IMG/VR virus record: IMGVR_UViG_3300035698_012530
Location: 1 to 56,450 of that record
Reading direction: 5' to 3' (one strand)
Length of the DNA: 56,450 nucleotides
Source of the DNA: a virus
In this document: piece by piece, positions 2,503 to 54,032 of the stretch
Position numbering within the stretch: the first letter of the stretch is position 1
Layout: each line of letters starts with the position of its first letter
The notes under the pieces: generated by a model
Seen by the model: only the letters and a program-made list of their open reading frames with translations
Told to the model about the DNA's origin: nothing
The model's database searches: none
Made by a program: the position numbers and the translations under genes

Positions 2503-2775
2503 ATGGAAAAAGAAAGAAAAATTTTAGATGCTTATAAAATTCTAAGGGATGCTGATACAGATTTTTTAGTTAGATTAGCGGTATTAGTTCCTCAAGCAAT
2601 TCTTAATACAAGGGATATGTCTTTACTTGAAATGGAAATAAAAAAACTTTATGCTGATAATAAAAAAATTATTGCAATCAAAACGTACAGACAAAAAACT
2701 GGTGTTAGTTTAAGAGAATCAAAAGAAGCTTGTGAAAAAATCACTGGTGTTAAAGGAATGTATAATGATAATTAG
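2503..2775 (+). CDS. Ribosomal protein L7/L12 C-terminal-domain-like protein
   Basis: 90 aa. The C-terminal half reads KKIIAIKTYRQKTGVSLRES followed by KEACEKI, which follows the bL12 CTD pattern (N-K-V-A-V-I-K-x-V-R-x-x-T-G-L-G-L-K-E-A-K-x-x-V-E), the face that contacts translation factors; the last strand and helix of the CTD are missing. The N-terminal half is helical and not L12-like. It has its own promoter and an AAGGAG site. L12-like proteins are known in phage genomes. I infer a role at the ribosomal stalk or in factor recruitment, but the fold is also used in unrelated small bacterial proteins. Confidence 0.7.
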   Translation: MEKERKILDAYKILRDADTDFLVRLAVLVPQAILNTRDMSLLEMEIKKLYADNKKIIAIKTYRQKTGVSLRESKEACEKITGVKGMYNDN

Positions 2776-24027: not shown

Positions 24028-24056
24028 TTGACAATAACATTAAATAGTTATATAAT
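24028..24056 (+). promoter_or_regulatory. Sigma70-like promoter, repeated phage type
   Basis: TTGACA 24028-24033, 17-bp spacer, TATAAT 24051-24056, then TAATCAATTAATAAAGGAG. It drives the 24089 gene and probably the ncRNA after it. Confidence 0.85.
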
Positions 24057-24088: not shown

Positions 24089-24292
24089 ATGGGTGTATAT
24101 GGTAACAAAGCAAAGTTTGTTGTAAGTAAAGCAAATCCAAAAAGACAAAAAGCAAAAGCTAGAAGAAAATTTGGACAGCTTTTTATTGGATCAGATAAAA
24201 AAGAAGTTATTGACGCTTTTTGTCAATCAAAAGATCCTTTGTTTAAAGAAAAAGGACAACGAAGAACAAATCTGATGAAGTCGTATAGATAA
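24089..24292 (+). CDS. Small basic protein, 67 aa
   Basis: AAAGGAG upstream. Strongly basic N half (KANPKRQKAKARRKFGQLF) and a basic tail (KGQRRTNLMKSYR), so nucleic acid binding is plausible. It is the only protein gene between the promoter at 24028 and the ncRNA, and might bind that RNA or the ribosome; this is inference from position and charge only. Confidence 0.65.
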   Translation: MGVYGNKAKFVVSKANPKRQKAKARRKFGQLFIGSDKKEVIDAFCQSKDPLFKEKGQRRTNLMKSYR

Positions 24293-24652
24293 AATTGGCA
24301 GGATGTGGGCTTAGAGGTAGCCATCATTTAAAGAGTTGCGAGTGGGTTCCGTACTGGAGCGATCCCAGTTTCCAGACGTATAACCACAGGGGAAGGAACA
24401 AGCACAGTTGTTTATATTAATTTATGGGTGATTATAGTTAGTTGTAAAACATACACAGCTAACGATTTTTAACCATAAAGTTTAACGGGCGAAGCCGTCG
24501 AACTAAGTATGAGAAAATAAAGGGATAAGATATCATACAATGTATAAACAGACCCTTAGAGCATTTGGTGTCATAACACACTACCAATTAACTAAAATAT
24601 CAGATTTACAAAAAACACTTACTAGTATATAATGTATTAGTAAGTGTTTTTT
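24293..24652 (+). ncRNA. Structured ncRNA with 23S rRNA GAC-like domain
   Basis: About 360 nt with no convincing frame, between a stop codon and a perfect terminator. Positions 24301-24334 match the L11-binding GTPase-associated centre of 23S rRNA in about 31 of 34 bases against the E. coli sequence as I remember it (nt about 1055-1088), including GGCTTAGA, AGCCATCATTTAAAGA and the equivalent of A1067. Further stems: CTGGA/TCCAG within GGTT/AACC (24346-24385), AACAA/TTGTT (24397-24412), TTTATGG/CCATAAA enclosing GTTAGTTG/CAGCTAAC (24420-24480), GTTTAACGG/CCGTCGAAC (24479-24502), GTATGA/TCATAC (24507-24538), TTGG/CCAA (24565-24587). It is not RNase P, tmRNA or a recognisable riboswitch. Confidence 0.8.
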
Positions 24653-24670: not shown

Positions 24671-24727
24671 ATGAAAAATATTGTAGTAGAATGTTGATGT
24701 ATTTATAAGGAGAAAATTAATGGATAG
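24671..24727 (+). CDS. Possible leader peptide with in-frame UGA, 18 aa
   Basis: AAGGAG 8 nt before ATG 24671. The frame MKNIVVEC-W(TGA)-CIYKEKING ends at TAG 24725-24727, overlapping the helicase ATG at 24720 and containing its AAGGAG site. If UGA is read as Trp the ribosome reaches the helicase start; if not, it stops at codon 9. This could couple helicase synthesis to UGA decoding. No direct evidence for translation exists beyond the ribosome site. Confidence 0.4.
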
Positions 24728-26051
24728 AAAATTATCAGATGAAAATTTAGAATTACTTATTATAAAAGGTGTATTAAACAGTAAAGAATTTATAACATTA
24801 TTAATGAACTCTTTTGAATCTCAATTTTTTAATAATCCCACATACGCAAAAATGTATGATGTATCAATAAATCATTATAAAGACAATTTAACTTTAATGG
24901 ATAAATTCATTATTAAAGATATTGTGGATTGTAAAGATATATTTGATGAAATGGAAGCAGTTGATTTTGATATGGCTAAAAACCATGATTTTCTTGTAAA
25001 AGAAACAAACCAATATCTTAAAGAAAAGTCAATCAAACAAGCTATTCTTGATAGTGTTGGTATTATTGATGCTAATAAGAATATTAACGATATCAGGGAC
25101 AAAGTTGAATCTGCATTAGCCAAAGATTTGACTATGAACCTTGGGATTGATTACTGAAATACAATTGGAGCAAGATTAAAACAAGTTTTATTACAAAACG
25201 AGAACAAAATACCATTATATTATCCTATGTTAGATGAATTTACTAATGGTGGTGTAATTCCTTATTCATTATCATTATTTTTAAGTCGTATTCATGGGTT
25301 TAAAACAACATTGCTTATTAACTTGATGGAAAGAGAATCAAGAAATGGTAAGAATGTTATTCTATTCAGTATGGAAACAAGTGAGAATGAGATAGCTAAA
25401 AGACTTGATTCAATAAGTACCCTATCAGATATAAATAAAATCCATACATCAAAAGAAAACATTATGGATTTAGCAAAAAAACTCAATAAAAGAAAAAGCG
25501 AAAAAGGTTTAATCATTATTAAGGAGTTTCCTACAGGACAAGCATCAACTGCAGATTTTAGAACTGTTTTAAGGGAATATGGATATAGAGGTATTCATTT
25601 TGATATAGGTTTTTGTGATTATTTAACAATTATGCAAAGCGAGCATCTTAATTTAGGTAATTTATATCAGGATGGTAAAAAAATTAGTGAAGAACTTAGA
25701 TCATTGAGTCTTGAATTTTTACTTCCTATGATAAGTGTATCACAATTGAACAGAGAAGGTATTGCTATTGATTTTAAAGAGGTTGATTATACACATATAG
25801 GTGAATCATTAGGAATTGCTGCATCAGCCGATTTCATGGCAATTATGGGTCAGGATGAAGAAAAATTAATATATGAATCTGAAATTATGTATAAAATTGT
25901 TAAAAATAGATTAGGTGGGCGTGTAAATGAAATGGGTAAATTCTATGTTGACAAAAAATCATTAAAGATGTATGATGAATCTGAATTAGAAATGTGGTTA
26001 AATGATGCAAACAGTACAAAAGATGATAGAAATGTAAGCAAAAAATATTAA
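24720..26051 (+). CDS. 41: Replicative DNA helicase (DnaB/gp41-like)
   Basis: 443 aa with one TGA-Trp (LGIDY-W-NTIG). The N-terminal helical domain occupies about residues 1-150. The RecA-like domain begins near 170: the Walker A region reads LSRIHGFKTTLLINLM, lacking the usual first Gly of GxxxxGKT; then VILFSMETSENEIAKRLD (H1a-like) and FDIGFCDYLTIM (Walker B), VSQLNREG, and KNRLGGRVNEMGKFYVD (arginine-finger region). It unwinds DNA 5'-3' as a hexamer at the fork with the primase at 46839-47900. AAGGAG lies inside a small leader frame. Confidence 0.85.
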
Positions 26052-28170: not shown

Positions 28171-29928
28171 ATGTTTAAAAATATCTATTATGATACATAT
28201 AAAAGTGTCATGCATTTATGGTATACTGCTAATGGTGTTAATAGATACAGAGCTGATAATTGGACTCCTTATGTATACAAAAAAGACCCAGAAGGTGATA
28301 TAAAAACCATTGATGGTCTTAAAGTATCTAAAATGTATTTTAATTCTTATTCATCATATAAAGAATATCAACAGAACAATAAAGATTTATATGAAAATAA
28401 CTGCAAACCTGAAATCCAATATCTAGCAGAAAAATATTATGATGTTATAGATGAAGACATTATTCCACCAGCTCTTAAAATATACTCTATAGATATTGAA
28501 GTACAACCTATCAATAATCCGGGTGTATTTCCTTCTCCACTTATAGCAGAAGAACCTATAACAATGATAAGCATATATGATTGGTTAGATAATCATGTAT
28601 ATTCTTTTGGGTTACATGAATATGATAATAGTGTCAATGATGACAAACCATTTAAAGTTACCTACATTAATTGTGGTGATGAAAAATCATTATTAAGAAA
28701 ATTTTTTAGTTTTACACACAAAAATGCTCCAGATGTGTATACAGGGTGGAACATATCGTTAAACAAGAAGATGTCCGTATCAGGGTTTGATTTTCCTTAT
28801 ATTATTAATAGAAGTAAAAACCTCTTTGAAGAGGATTTGTACTTACTCTTATCTCCTATTAAAAAGGTAAGAGCATGGAAATCAAATGAAGATACAGGTG
28901 TATCCATTTCTGGAGTATCAATAATAGATTATCAATGTATATATAAATGGTTTACAAGAAATAATTTAGAAAAATATACATTAGATTATGTGTGTAAATT
29001 TGAGCTTAATGAGGTTAAGCTTGAGTATAAAGGGTCTCTAGCTGAATTATATAATAATGACTGGCAAAAGTATGTTGATTATAATATACGTGATGTTGAG
29101 TTAATAAAATTATTGGATGATAAACTTGAATATATTAATCTAGCACAAAGTTTATCTTTACTTACTAGAGCCCCAATGGAATCTTATATTGCAATGACAG
29201 CTTTATTAGAAGGCAAGTTATTAACACATTTCAGAAGAGAAGGATTATGTGCTCCTATATTTGAAGGTGGAACTCAGCATGGGTTTCCCGCTGCTTATGT
29301 CAAAGAACCTCATGTAGGTTTATGGGATTGGATTTCAAGTATTGATATTGCGTCAAGTTACCCTACTGCTATAATTACATTGAATATGAGTGTAGAGACA
29401 TATCTTGGTAGAATTCAAACACTTACAGAAGATCATATTATTTTATATACTAAAAGAAGAGAATTTCCACCATTTACATTAAAAAAGAAAATTGGATCAG
29501 TTGATTTTAAAGGTGATAAATTAATATCATTCAATAAAATGTTAGATAAAGGATTAATTGCTATTGCTCCTTGTGGTAGTTGTTTTAAGACATCTAAAGA
29601 AGGTGTAATTGCTTATGTAGAAAGAGAAATGTTTATTAAAAGAAAACAAATTAAAACTGTTATGAAATCATTGTATGATGATGACAGTAAAAAAGATGAG
29701 GTTAAAAGATTATTTGCATTTCAATGGGCATTGAAAATTCTCTTAAATAGTATGTTTGGTATAATGGCTGTACCTTATTCACGTTACTTTCAAATAAATA
29801 TAGCTGAAGCAATTACAGCTTGTGGTAGACATAATGTTAAGCAGGGAGAACTATTTACAAATGAAATTCTTAATGATATAATGAATAAAGATTTAGTTAA
29901 AATTATTGGAGAAATAAAGGAGAAATAA
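28171..29928 (+). CDS. 43A: DNA polymerase family B, N-terminal part (gp43A-like)
   Basis: 585 aa. Exonuclease motifs: IYSIDIEVQP (ExoI), YTGWN...SGFDFPYIINR (ExoII), YVDYNIRDVELI (ExoIII). Polymerase motif A is SIDIASSYPTAI at about residue 388, motif B WALKILLNSMFGIM at about 525. The frame ends after EIKEK, before motif C (DTDS), which is in the separate gene at 31187-32053. Both parts must assemble to make an active polymerase with 3'-5' proofreading. T4-related phages with gene 43 split at this place are known. All ten or so Trp codons are TGG. Confidence 0.92.
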   Translation: MFKNIYYDTYKSVMHLWYTANGVNRYRADNWTPYVYKKDPEGDIKTIDGLKVSKMYFNSYSSYKEYQQNNKDLYENNCKPEIQYLAEKYYDVIDEDIIPPALKIYSIDIEVQPINNPGVFPSPLIAEEPITMISIYDWLDNHVYSFGLHEYDNSVNDDKPFKVTYINCGDEKSLLRKFFSFTHKNAPDVYTGWNISLNKKMSVSGFDFPYIINRSKNLFEEDLYLLLSPIKKVRAWKSNEDTGVSISGVSIIDYQCIYKWFTRNNLEKYTLDYVCKFELNEVKLEYKGSLAELYNNDWQKYVDYNIRDVELIKLLDDKLEYINLAQSLSLLTRAPMESYIAMTALLEGKLLTHFRREGLCAPIFEGGTQHGFPAAYVKEPHVGLWDWISSIDIASSYPTAIITLNMSVETYLGRIQTLTEDHIILYTKRREFPPFTLKKKIGSVDFKGDKLISFNKMLDKGLIAIAPCGSCFKTSKEGVIAYVEREMFIKRKQIKTVMKSLYDDDSKKDEVKRLFAFQWALKILLNSMFGIMAVPYSRYFQINIAEAITACGRHNVKQGELFTNEILNDIMNKDLVKIIGEIKEK

Positions 29929-30994: not shown

Positions 30995-31194
30995 TGTCAC
31001 GAATAGAAGAGGCAAAAAGAGGAAAACAAGAATTAAGACAAGAGGCTATAGACCTTATAAATGGTTTATTACATTATCCAAAAGATGTTGTTAATCCTAA
31101 ATGTGAAAGATTAGTTGATTGTGTTATATGCGCATCAACATTGGAAAATGTAATTATACAAAATCAAGCCTTTAAAGATACGAACAATGTTTAA
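30994..31194 (+). CDS. Hypothetical protein, 66 aa
   Basis: TAATG coupling. Helical charged N half (EEAKRGKQELRQEAIDLI) and two Cys near the C terminus (CERLVDCVICAS). It overlaps the polymerase C-terminal gene by 8 nt, so polymerase translation may be coupled to it. Confidence 0.55.
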   Translation: MSRIEEAKRGKQELRQEAIDLINGLLHYPKDVVNPKCERLVDCVICASTLENVIIQNQAFKDTNNV

Positions 31195-32053
31195 AGATTA
31201 TGTTGCATATATTGATACTGATTCTTGTTATATCAAGATAGGTCAATACCTTGATGATATGGGTGTAAAGGATAAATTTGAAACTATGCCACAAAAAGAA
31301 CAAGTGGAATATGTTAAACGAATTAATGATATTATTGCGAGTTATGTTAATAACAAATGCTATAATATAACACAAAAACAACATTACAATTCTCAGGTAA
31401 ATGATTTTAAAATAGTATTTGAACCTGAAAAGATTGCATTAACAGGTATATTCTCTACCAAAAAACGCTATGCTACATGGACATTATTGGATGATGGTAA
31501 ATGGGTAGACAAATTATCTATAACTGGACTTGAAGTGATAAGGTCTGACTCGCCTGAAATGGTTAAACCAAAAATTCTTGTAATACTTGAAATGATATTA
31601 AAGAAGCATGCTGATGATGAAATTAGAAATACAATCAATAAACATAAAACCGATTTATACAAATCATCACCAGAGGAAATATCAACTAACAAGGGTATTA
31701 ATAAACTTAAAAAATATCTTAATAATGACTATACATGGAAGAAAAAATGCCCACATCAACTAAAAGGTGTAGCAAATTTTAGTTTTTTCTTAAACAAGTT
31801 TAATTTAAAAGATTTATATGATATTCCATTGGAAGGAAATAAGGCAAAAATAGTGTATCTAAAAAAGAATAAATTTAACAAAACATCCTTGTCTTTCTAC
31901 AAGTGACCTAAAGAATTTGATAAATTAGGTATACAGGTTGATTATAAAAAAATGATATATGATAATTATACTAAAAAGGTTGAGGGTTTATTGAAGATAA
32001 TAAATAAATTATCATTATTAGAACAACAGAATTTAATTGACAGTTTCTTTTAA
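31187..32053 (+). CDS. 43B: DNA polymerase family B, C-terminal part (gp43B-like)
   Basis: 288 aa, starting MFKDYVAYIDTDSCYIKIG: the catalytic motif C (Y-x-D-T-D-S) lies at residues 9-13. Then GIFSTKKRYATWTL (KKRY DNA-contact motif) and the thumb domain. One TGA at 31904 (SFYK-W-PKEFDK) must be Trp for the protein to reach its normal end at ...LIDSFF. No good ribosome site precedes the ATG; it overlaps the gene before. It pairs with the 28171-29928 product. Confidence 0.9.
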
Positions 32054-52856: not shown

Positions 52857-54032
52857 TTACATTAAATCTGCTTCTAACTTTGCAACTTGTTCTTTCATAT
52901 CCTCATCAAATGCTGATGAATATCCTGTTGTTTTTAATTTTTCATTAATTTTATTAAGAATATCATTTCTTATATTATCACTGCCAGTAACAAATTGAAG
53001 AGCATTTGCTATTCCTTGTCCTAATCTTTCATTTTCATAAGAATACCATGAACCAGATTTTTCGACAATACCCATTTCAATTGCTATATCTAACATACCA
53101 ATCATTTTATCAATACCATTTTCATAATCAATAGAAATTTGACCTGATTTTGCAGAAGGATAAAATCTATTTTTAATAGCATGTACATTGATAAGTTTAT
53201 CACTACCAACTTGTTCAGTATCCTTTTTACCAGCTTTCTTTAAGTATAATATAATATCAGGTTGTAATAATACAGCTTGACCACCAACTACTGAATCTGG
53301 CATAGGAATTAAACCAGATGAACTATAGAAATGACTTGTTATAACACCAATAGAACTTTGTGATTTAATAATATTAACAAGTAGTTTCAATGTAGATTTA
53401 ATAATTCTTGCATTCCCACCCATATCTTGTTTATACTCACCACCTAGTGCGTCATTATACGATTTCATTTTATCAATACCACCAATAGAATCAATGATAA
53501 TACAATAATTTTTTTCTTGAGTTTCTTTAATTTGAGCAAGAGAACCTTTAATTTCTTCTGCTCAAGGACTATAAATGTAAAGACATTTATCAGTATCAAG
53601 CCCCCATCTTGCTGCAAAATCTTTTGTTATACCACCTTCTGTATCAATAATAACAGGTTTAAATCCTTGTTTTAATGCAGATATAGCAGTAAGTACAGCA
53701 AGACTAGATTTAAATGTATGTTCTTTTCCTACTAATAAAGTAAGACTTTTTTCTGGCAAACCTCTATATAATTCACCAGATGAAATTCTATTAAGATCAA
53801 ATGTTGGTAATGGAATTCAAGTATCAACATTAGCAATATCTGATTCACTCATTACTGAGCAATGCACCCCTTTTACTTTTTTGGCTATTTTAGCCTTTAA
53901 GTCATCAAACATTCCTACTGTTTTATTTTCAATTGGTTTAGCTTTTGGTTTAGCTTTTGGTTTAGCTTTTGTTTTAGCTTTTGGTTTTGCTTTTGTTTTA
54001 GCTATTACTTTTATTTCTGATGTTGTTGCCAT
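52857..54032 (-). CDS. uvsX: Recombinase UvsX/RecA
   Basis: 391 aa with two TGA-Trp (NVDT-W-IPL, IYSP-W-AEE). Walker A is LLVGKEHTFKSSLAVL, with the F-K-S form of T4 UvsX; Walker B is CIIIDSIGGI; then GGNARIIKSTLKLLV, ITSHFY and GGQAVLLQPDIILYL (L2 region). It forms filaments on ssDNA for strand exchange and recombination-dependent replication. The N terminus has a Lys/Ala/Pro repeat (AKTKAKPKAK and so on, codons from 53938-54015) not usual in UvsX, perhaps a flexible DNA- or protein-binding tail. Confidence 0.92.

Follow-up and report, generated by a model that had tools for sequence, protein, structure and literature searches.

An unannotated phage non-coding RNA family predicted to fold as a complete 23S rRNA GTPase-associated centre with a large insert in helix 44

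The IMG/VR virus record IMGVR_UViG_3300035698_012530 was analysed over its 56,450 nucleotides (nt), and this whole stretch is referred to here as the window. At positions 24293–24589 it encodes an RNA which belongs to a family of unannotated phage non-coding RNAs, each containing the complete GTPase-associated centre (GAC) of 23S ribosomal RNA (rRNA), made up of helices 42, 43 and 44 (H42–H44), with a large insert in H44; the RNA and all of its elements are on the plus strand. It starts directly behind the stop codon of an open reading frame (ORF) of 67 amino acids (24089–24292), upstream of which is a perfect σ70 consensus promoter (TTGACA-17-TATAAT, 24028–24056, plus strand), as judged by the consensus match the likely promoter of both ORF and RNA. 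The initial annotation had described a promoter-driven and terminator-ended RNA of about 360 nt (24293–24652), but the consensus match precedes the ORF and not the RNA itself. The proposed terminator corresponds to an inverted repeat ending in T's (24610–24652, plus strand), which may serve this purpose, but it is A+T-rich, no terminator was called, and the surrounding region (24605–24652) also contains an 11/12 promoter match (TTTACA-17-TATAAT, 24605–24633). The structured core is shorter than first described, and ends at position 24589.

The stretch from 24301 to 24334 matches positions 1055–1088 of E. coli 23S rRNA at 31 of 34 positions, which bears out the near-identity to the L11-binding region noted initially. 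Using these 34 nt as query, a blastn search of 2.3 Gb of phage records retrieved 23S rRNA (E = 2e-4), as well as unannotated intergenic loci of unrelated large phages (ME3, CBB, GAP32, Milchi, Astolliot and XaC1), several of which share the 5′ part of the window RNA plus a stretch ~250 nt downstream. This 3′ stretch (UUUGGYGURAYARCRCAC) corresponds to the second half of H44, and the sequences just beyond both ends of the RNA are mutually complementary and correspond to H42, which together indicate that the RNA represents a whole GAC with an insert inside H44. The H44 part had originally been described as divergent, since that reading ran straight on into the insert; the loop half of H44 is in fact located at 24568–24579, following 227 nt of inserted sequence, and all three helices are present and covarying. 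A covariance model of the 5′ module (R1), built from 14 RNAs of the same insert class (class I, see below) with the window left out, gave the window RNA a score of 109.7 bits (E = 2.1e-34), while the GAC of E. coli 23S rRNA reached 39.1 bits. Homologues are conserved at both ends of the 24293–24589 core, and its predicted fold is better than that of 200 shuffled sequences (z = −3.06).

The window RNA is not flanked by the remainder of 23S rRNA, as a genuine 23S rRNA gene or fragment would be, and comparison with E. coli 16S, 23S and 5S rRNA using blastn-short gave no consistent similarity outside the GAC and the sarcin-ricin loop (SRL) discussed below, only scattered 9–13-mers. The Rfam LSU_rRNA model did not detect the RNA even at an E of 10, probably due to the use of a long model on a short and split match. 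An Rfam 15 scan of the window and 20 loci detected only transfer RNAs (tRNAs) and transfer-messenger RNA (tmRNA), with no GOLLD, ROOL, OLE or other family above the gathering threshold. The description as a free-standing phage RNA that is otherwise not rRNA has thus held.

In the window RNA, H42 is formed by the 5′ strand at 24293–24301 (equivalent to the strand ending at 1055 in 23S rRNA) and the 3′ strand at 24581–24589, which closes the domain. The H43 hairpin, which represents the uL11/thiostrepton-loop element (equivalent to 1057–1081), spans 24303–24327 with A24313 as the A1067 equivalent, and is followed by the H43–H44 linker UUAAAGAG (24328–24335, equivalent to 1082–1089). Within this linker, U24328 and A24332 represent the tertiary pair 1082–1086, while A24334 (1088) is the partner of U24306 (1060). 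The H44 equivalent at 24568–24579 reads GU-GUCAUA-AC for 1091–1100, with C24579 (1102) paired with G24333 (the G1087 equivalent) and a C (C24572) at the position of A1095.

Covariation was assessed in 54 gap-free composite sequences with the insert removed; the patterns used to collect the members imposed some base conservation but no pairings, as degenerate letters at paired sites equally permitted mispairs. Over the whole domain, 91.7% of cells were paired, compared with 70.0% for shuffled sequences and 33–53% for slid registers, and the covariation score was 0.551 versus 0.153 for shuffles, with 0 of 500 shuffles as good. Two-sided changes were found in 9 of the 10 H42 pairs (83.9% of cells paired), while H43 was paired in 98.1% of cells, with pair 1058–1080 present as GC, UA, AU and CG. 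H44 pair 1092–1099 is CG in 36 and UA in 18 sequences with zero mismatches, and 1087–1102 is GC in 54/54. Tertiary pair 1060–1088 is UA in 54/54, and 1082–1086 is UA in 38, AU in 8, CG in 7 and another combination in a single sequence; this covariation between U-A, A-U and C-G indicates that the three-dimensional fold is under selection. The pair counts are those of the three-way H42/H43/H44 junction with conserved linker that defines the GAC fold. Among the bases which contact translation factors (59 members), the A1067 equivalent is A in 44 and G in 15, and the A1095 equivalent is A in 52, G in 5 and C in 2, with the window RNA having A and C, respectively. In two members (L025:640 and L104:10326, on the strand of the RNA), additional stem-loops are located between H43 and the UUUAAAGAG linker, with the GAC core retained.

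The insert interrupts the 5′ strand of H44 (24336–24562 in the window) and ranges from 28 to 441 nt across the family. Based on motif rules, 23 of the 70 RNAs were assigned to class I, and 11 each to classes II and III, with the remaining 25 left unclassified. Class I, which includes the window RNA, is recognised by CAGGGGAAGGACAAGYACAGUUUG, GGGCGAAGCC and GACCCUUAGAG, and has three pairings backed by covariation. Helix P5 (GUGG 24342–24345 with CCAC 24384–24387) encloses CCGUA...ACGUAUAA and CUGGA/UCCAG, and in 29 class I RNAs had 106 paired cells, where shuffling predicts 61. The AGGG of the conserved CAGGGGAAGGAACAAG (24388–24391) forms a long-range pairing with CCCU (24553–24556), which becomes CGGG/CCCG in four members (114 paired cells versus 104 expected), and helix P6 is formed by UGUUUAUA (24409–24416) and UAUAAACA (24543–24550), with 192 paired cells versus 101 expected by shuffling. 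A further candidate helix, P4 (UUGC with GCA), was plausible by eye but is unsupported by the pair counts (62 versus 60 expected). The most conserved 3′ sequence of class I, CCCUUAGAGC (24553–24562), is located ahead of H44. A hairpin at 24479–24504 displays the conserved GGGCGAAGCC, and is by inspection the positional equivalent of the SRL hairpin of class III, with a conserved (G)ACUUAA directly following both hairpins in the alignment; its outer part had 128 paired cells versus 115 expected, a weak count which probably results from misalignment. A stretch of the window insert suspected to represent an SRL (AAGUAUGAGAAAA) was rejected, as it did not conform to the motif.

Class II is characterised by CCGGARACGGUAAGGC, and may be found in tandem with class I, as in Milchi and Astolliot. 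In four loci (L006, L011, L016 and L029), a single phage has a class I RNA in tandem with an additional short GAC RNA, which belongs to class II in L006, L011 and L016. The minimal member of the family (L093, 1480–1590) is ~97 nt long with a 28-nt insert, thus containing little beyond the GAC, and is located within a tRNA array, with tRNA genes directly on one side and a coding region on the other.

The class III RNAs contain an insert hairpin of which the loop equals the SRL. A hairpin stem topped by the AGUACGAGAGGA loop, allowing one mismatch, was present in 10 of the 70 members versus 0.06 expected, and was absent from the reverse strand. The stem of this hairpin covaries while the loop is strongly conserved (92.9% paired, score 0.914 versus 0.252), with the tetraloop differing in some members (GGGA, GAAA). 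In 23S rRNA, the GAC and the SRL jointly form the docking site of the translational GTPases, and their co-occurrence in a single small molecule gives the strongest indication of what the family does.

Pattern scans of IMG/VR and phage records gave 70 distinct RNAs of ~100–500 nt, with further members visible by eye. The family is widespread, consists of several insert classes and includes one with an SRL, none of which had been anticipated. The members identified via blastn and these scans are divergent, with the GAC part conserved throughout. Named carriers are phages ME3, CBB, GAP32, BF, pEa_SNUABM_12/19/44/47/49/50, XaC1, XbC2, XacN1, Kaldavass, Milchi, Astolliot, pf16, UNO-G1W1 and Aeromonas phage 4_4572. 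Model R1 detected the RNA in 23/23 carrier records, while a covariance-model check found no family member in phiKZ, T4, RaK2 and 121Q, and only a sub-threshold match in phage G (E = 0.086). Among ~85,000 prokaryote genomes scanned, a 26-base 3′ pattern matched a single contig, a short fragment of a metagenome-assembled genome, and plasmids searched with the insert as query gave zero matches; the family is phage-restricted. A match in Paenibacillus phage Pd_22F (L008, MZ092003.1) was dropped from the family, as it is a true 23S sequence; from about position 1500 this record contains ordinary 23S rRNA, which is likely to be host ribosomal DNA (rDNA) in the assembly.

A tRNA or tmRNA gene was found within 2 kb of the RNA in 46 of 68 loci, with all 230 of these genes on the same strand as the RNA, and all 44 carrier records contain tRNA genes, with up to 70 per record. 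The window encodes a phage tmRNA (18547–18831, plus strand) with tag GAYHNQNVVNVVC, and tmRNA was also seen near the GAC RNA in L024 and L082. Full-length phage EF-Tu is encoded in two carriers (L115, G028:15500–19000; L116, G029:252000–264000), in the second of which the gene is ~3 kb from the GAC RNA inside the same tRNA array. EF-Ts is likewise present in two carriers (L110, G028:46000–47400; G007:413141–413566), with G028 combining EF-Tu, EF-Ts and a large-type GAC RNA with a degenerate SRL-like hairpin. L12 is a component of the same ribosomal stalk, and complete bL12 genes were found in two carrier phages (L113 in G014, L114 in G030). Small proteins with a short segment resembling the L12 C-terminus are encoded in the window (2503–2775, plus strand) and in L109, L111 and L112; the window segment (KIIAIKTYRQKTGVSLRESK), the gene of which is located beside a tRNA-Ser gene, scored under the Pfam cut-off, while its counterpart in UNO-G1W1 was above. 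No uL11 gene was found in the 44 carrier records.

No protein family was consistently adjacent to the RNA loci, with the clusters seen consisting of related phages or antisense ORFs. Hypothetical proteins are annotated antisense to the RNA in Milchi (L006, PQ464597.1, 1520–1796) and UNO-G1W1 (L009, 1567–1674), and are probably spurious ORFs. Elsewhere in the window, many ORFs (for example 24720–26051 and 52857–54032) have in-frame TGA codons at positions where tryptophan fits in T4-like replication genes (helicase, UvsX-like and primase), and the window phage probably reads TGA as tryptophan. Its DNA polymerase is split over ORFs 28171–29928 and 31187–32053, which are ~1.26 kb apart with small ORFs in between, as in some T4-like phages.

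Comparison with known systems highlights what the phage RNA shares with its ribosomal counterpart, namely H42, H43 and H44, the linker UUUAAAGA, the U1060–A1088 and 1082–1086 pairs and a GUAAUA-like H44 loop, all found in the 23S GAC (H42–H44, 1051–1108), with class III also sharing the AGUACGAGAGGA hairpin loop of the SRL (H95). In contrast to the 23S GAC, it is phage-encoded, free-standing and ~100–500 nt long, has its own H42 closure and a large H44 insert, and contains no other rRNA. Leaders of ribosomal protein genes, such as the L10 leader (RF00557), are also non-ribosomal RNAs that mimic rRNA; however, the phage GAC RNA is not located ahead of ribosomal protein genes, has no conserved downstream gene and no Rfam match, and would be trans-acting if it acts at all. 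GOLLD and ROOL are likewise large structured phage RNAs and are often near tRNA genes, but the phage GAC RNA is smaller, has a GAC/SRL core rather than a cage architecture, and did not match their Rfam models in the 21 sources scanned. Identity with the phiKZ non-coding RNAs (PMC8545117) was rejected, as phiKZ contains no family member. Phage-encoded bS21 and bL12 are copies of dynamic parts of the ribosome, with bL12 from the same stalk, but these are proteins rather than RNA, and the passages available from their description (PMC6375957) do not mention an RNA mimic. The synthetic 'ribosome-in-pieces' oligonucleotides (Munishkin and Wool 1997, as cited by later papers) also place SRL and thiostrepton-domain RNAs off the ribosome and bind EF-G in vitro, but are man-made and two separate molecules, while the phage RNA is natural and class III has both in one molecule. 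We found no earlier description of a stand-alone RNA mimic of the factor site, from virus or cell, in Rfam or the literature searched, the coverage of which did not extend to subscription journals and most of bioRxiv, and this agrees with the initial view that no such phage RNA was known. Ribosomal protein leaders that mimic rRNA and phage-encoded ribosomal proteins are known, but a free-standing phage RNA constituting a complete GAC, with or without SRL, fits neither.

The locus would encode a stable non-coding phage RNA folding as a complete copy of the GAC, in which H44 accommodates an insert domain that differs between classes. It may be part of a phage translation module, the other components of which would be tRNAs and tmRNA, joined in some phages by EF-Tu, EF-Ts or bL12. 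The tertiary structure of the GAC, as present in the 58-mer, is recognised by uL11, and since this is the part conserved in the phage RNAs, binding of uL11 is a reasonable prediction, while binding of L10, which had also been suggested initially, lacks specific support. Class III RNAs would offer translational GTPases or factor–tRNA complexes the two docking elements at once, as isolated SRL and thiostrepton-domain RNAs bind such factors in vitro: EF-G binds oligoribonucleotides mimicking these domains (Munishkin and Wool 1997, as cited in PMC5829649 and PMC6562825), and the SRL alone, as an oligonucleotide, has micromolar affinity for EF-G and IF2 (PMC5829649). Our favoured proposal, which we rate slightly below an even chance, is that the RNA would be trans-acting, imitate the site at which factors bind the ribosome, and during infection titrate or re-direct the ligands of the stalk base. 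That it may represent a natural 'ribosome-in-pieces', with a trans-acting complete GAC, supplemented by the SRL in some lineages, capturing uL11, EF-Tu/EF-G/IF2 or RelA–tRNA and thereby reprogramming translation or the stringent response, is in our view evenly balanced. Several observations weigh against the favoured proposal. The class I RNAs, including that of the window, lack the SRL; the window RNA has a C at the A1095 equivalent, 15 of 59 members have a G in place of A1067, and there is no tRNA gene within 2 kb of the window RNA. The conserved insert motifs (CAGGGGAAGGACAAG and GGGCGAAGCC) are not explained by a pure GAC decoy, while EF-Tu, EF-Ts and bL12 are present in few carriers only, and the gene counts, coming from carriers alone, represent associations rather than enrichments.

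Alternatively, the RNA could function in defence, by trapping host enzymes which attack the ribosomal factor site, such as SRL-cutting VapC-type RNases or rRNA-modifying enzymes, or by serving as their sacrificial substrate, in parallel to phage tRNAs substituting for tRNAs cleaved by the host. The location among phage tRNAs is consistent with this, VapC toxins which cleave the SRL do exist (reviewed in PMC7180214), and the tetraloop variation in some members is what an arms race might give. This explanation is nevertheless unlikely, as the universal part of the family is the GAC rather than the SRL, which the majority of members lack, and we know of no GAC-specific nuclease. Somewhat more doubtful still is a role as blocker of the stringent response, in which the RNA would titrate uL11, or hold deacylated tRNA–RelA via contacts resembling those of the thiostrepton loop and SRL, with the result that RelA makes no (p)ppGpp during infection. 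L11-deficient (relC) strains are relaxed. In the RelA–ribosome complex, the A/R tRNA touches A1067 and the SRL (PMC5829649), and of these two elements the phage RNA always has the first and sometimes the second. Conversely, about a quarter of the members have a G at the A1067 equivalent, and the A-site finger needed by RelA is not recognisable in the RNA.

The GAC 58-mer folds autonomously, and the phage RNA might enter or assemble with the host 50S subunit and replace or remodel the stalk base, comparable to phage bS21 and bL12 entering host ribosomes; we consider this very improbable, as the GAC covalently belongs to 23S rRNA, and the phage RNA has a helix of its own, variable in sequence, that closes the H42 end. 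Mimicry of rRNA is typical of ribosomal protein leaders, but a cis-regulatory role of this or another type for a neighbouring gene is hardly credible, since there is no conserved downstream gene across families, the L11 gene is absent from the 44 carrier records, and the RNA is often located between tRNA genes. An artefact through host rDNA contamination, assembly chimerism (raised in the initial annotation) or chance similarity, as exemplified by the ordinary 23S sequence at the matched place in Pd_22F, is excluded for the family: the ~70 homologues are divergent, come from independent contigs and cultured isolates, have a covarying structure and contain inserts that are not rRNA.

If the proposed trans-acting mimicry of the factor-binding site is correct, the known tactics of phages would extend to imitating the ribosome with RNA, and the family would form a natural counterpart to the 'ribosome-in-pieces' experiments of 1997. 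The carriers include the cultured isolates ME3, CBB, GAP32, pf16 and XacN1, and the family offers ~70 natural versions of the GAC fold, some with a swapped 1082–1086 pair, which evolved free of the constraint to work in a ribosome.
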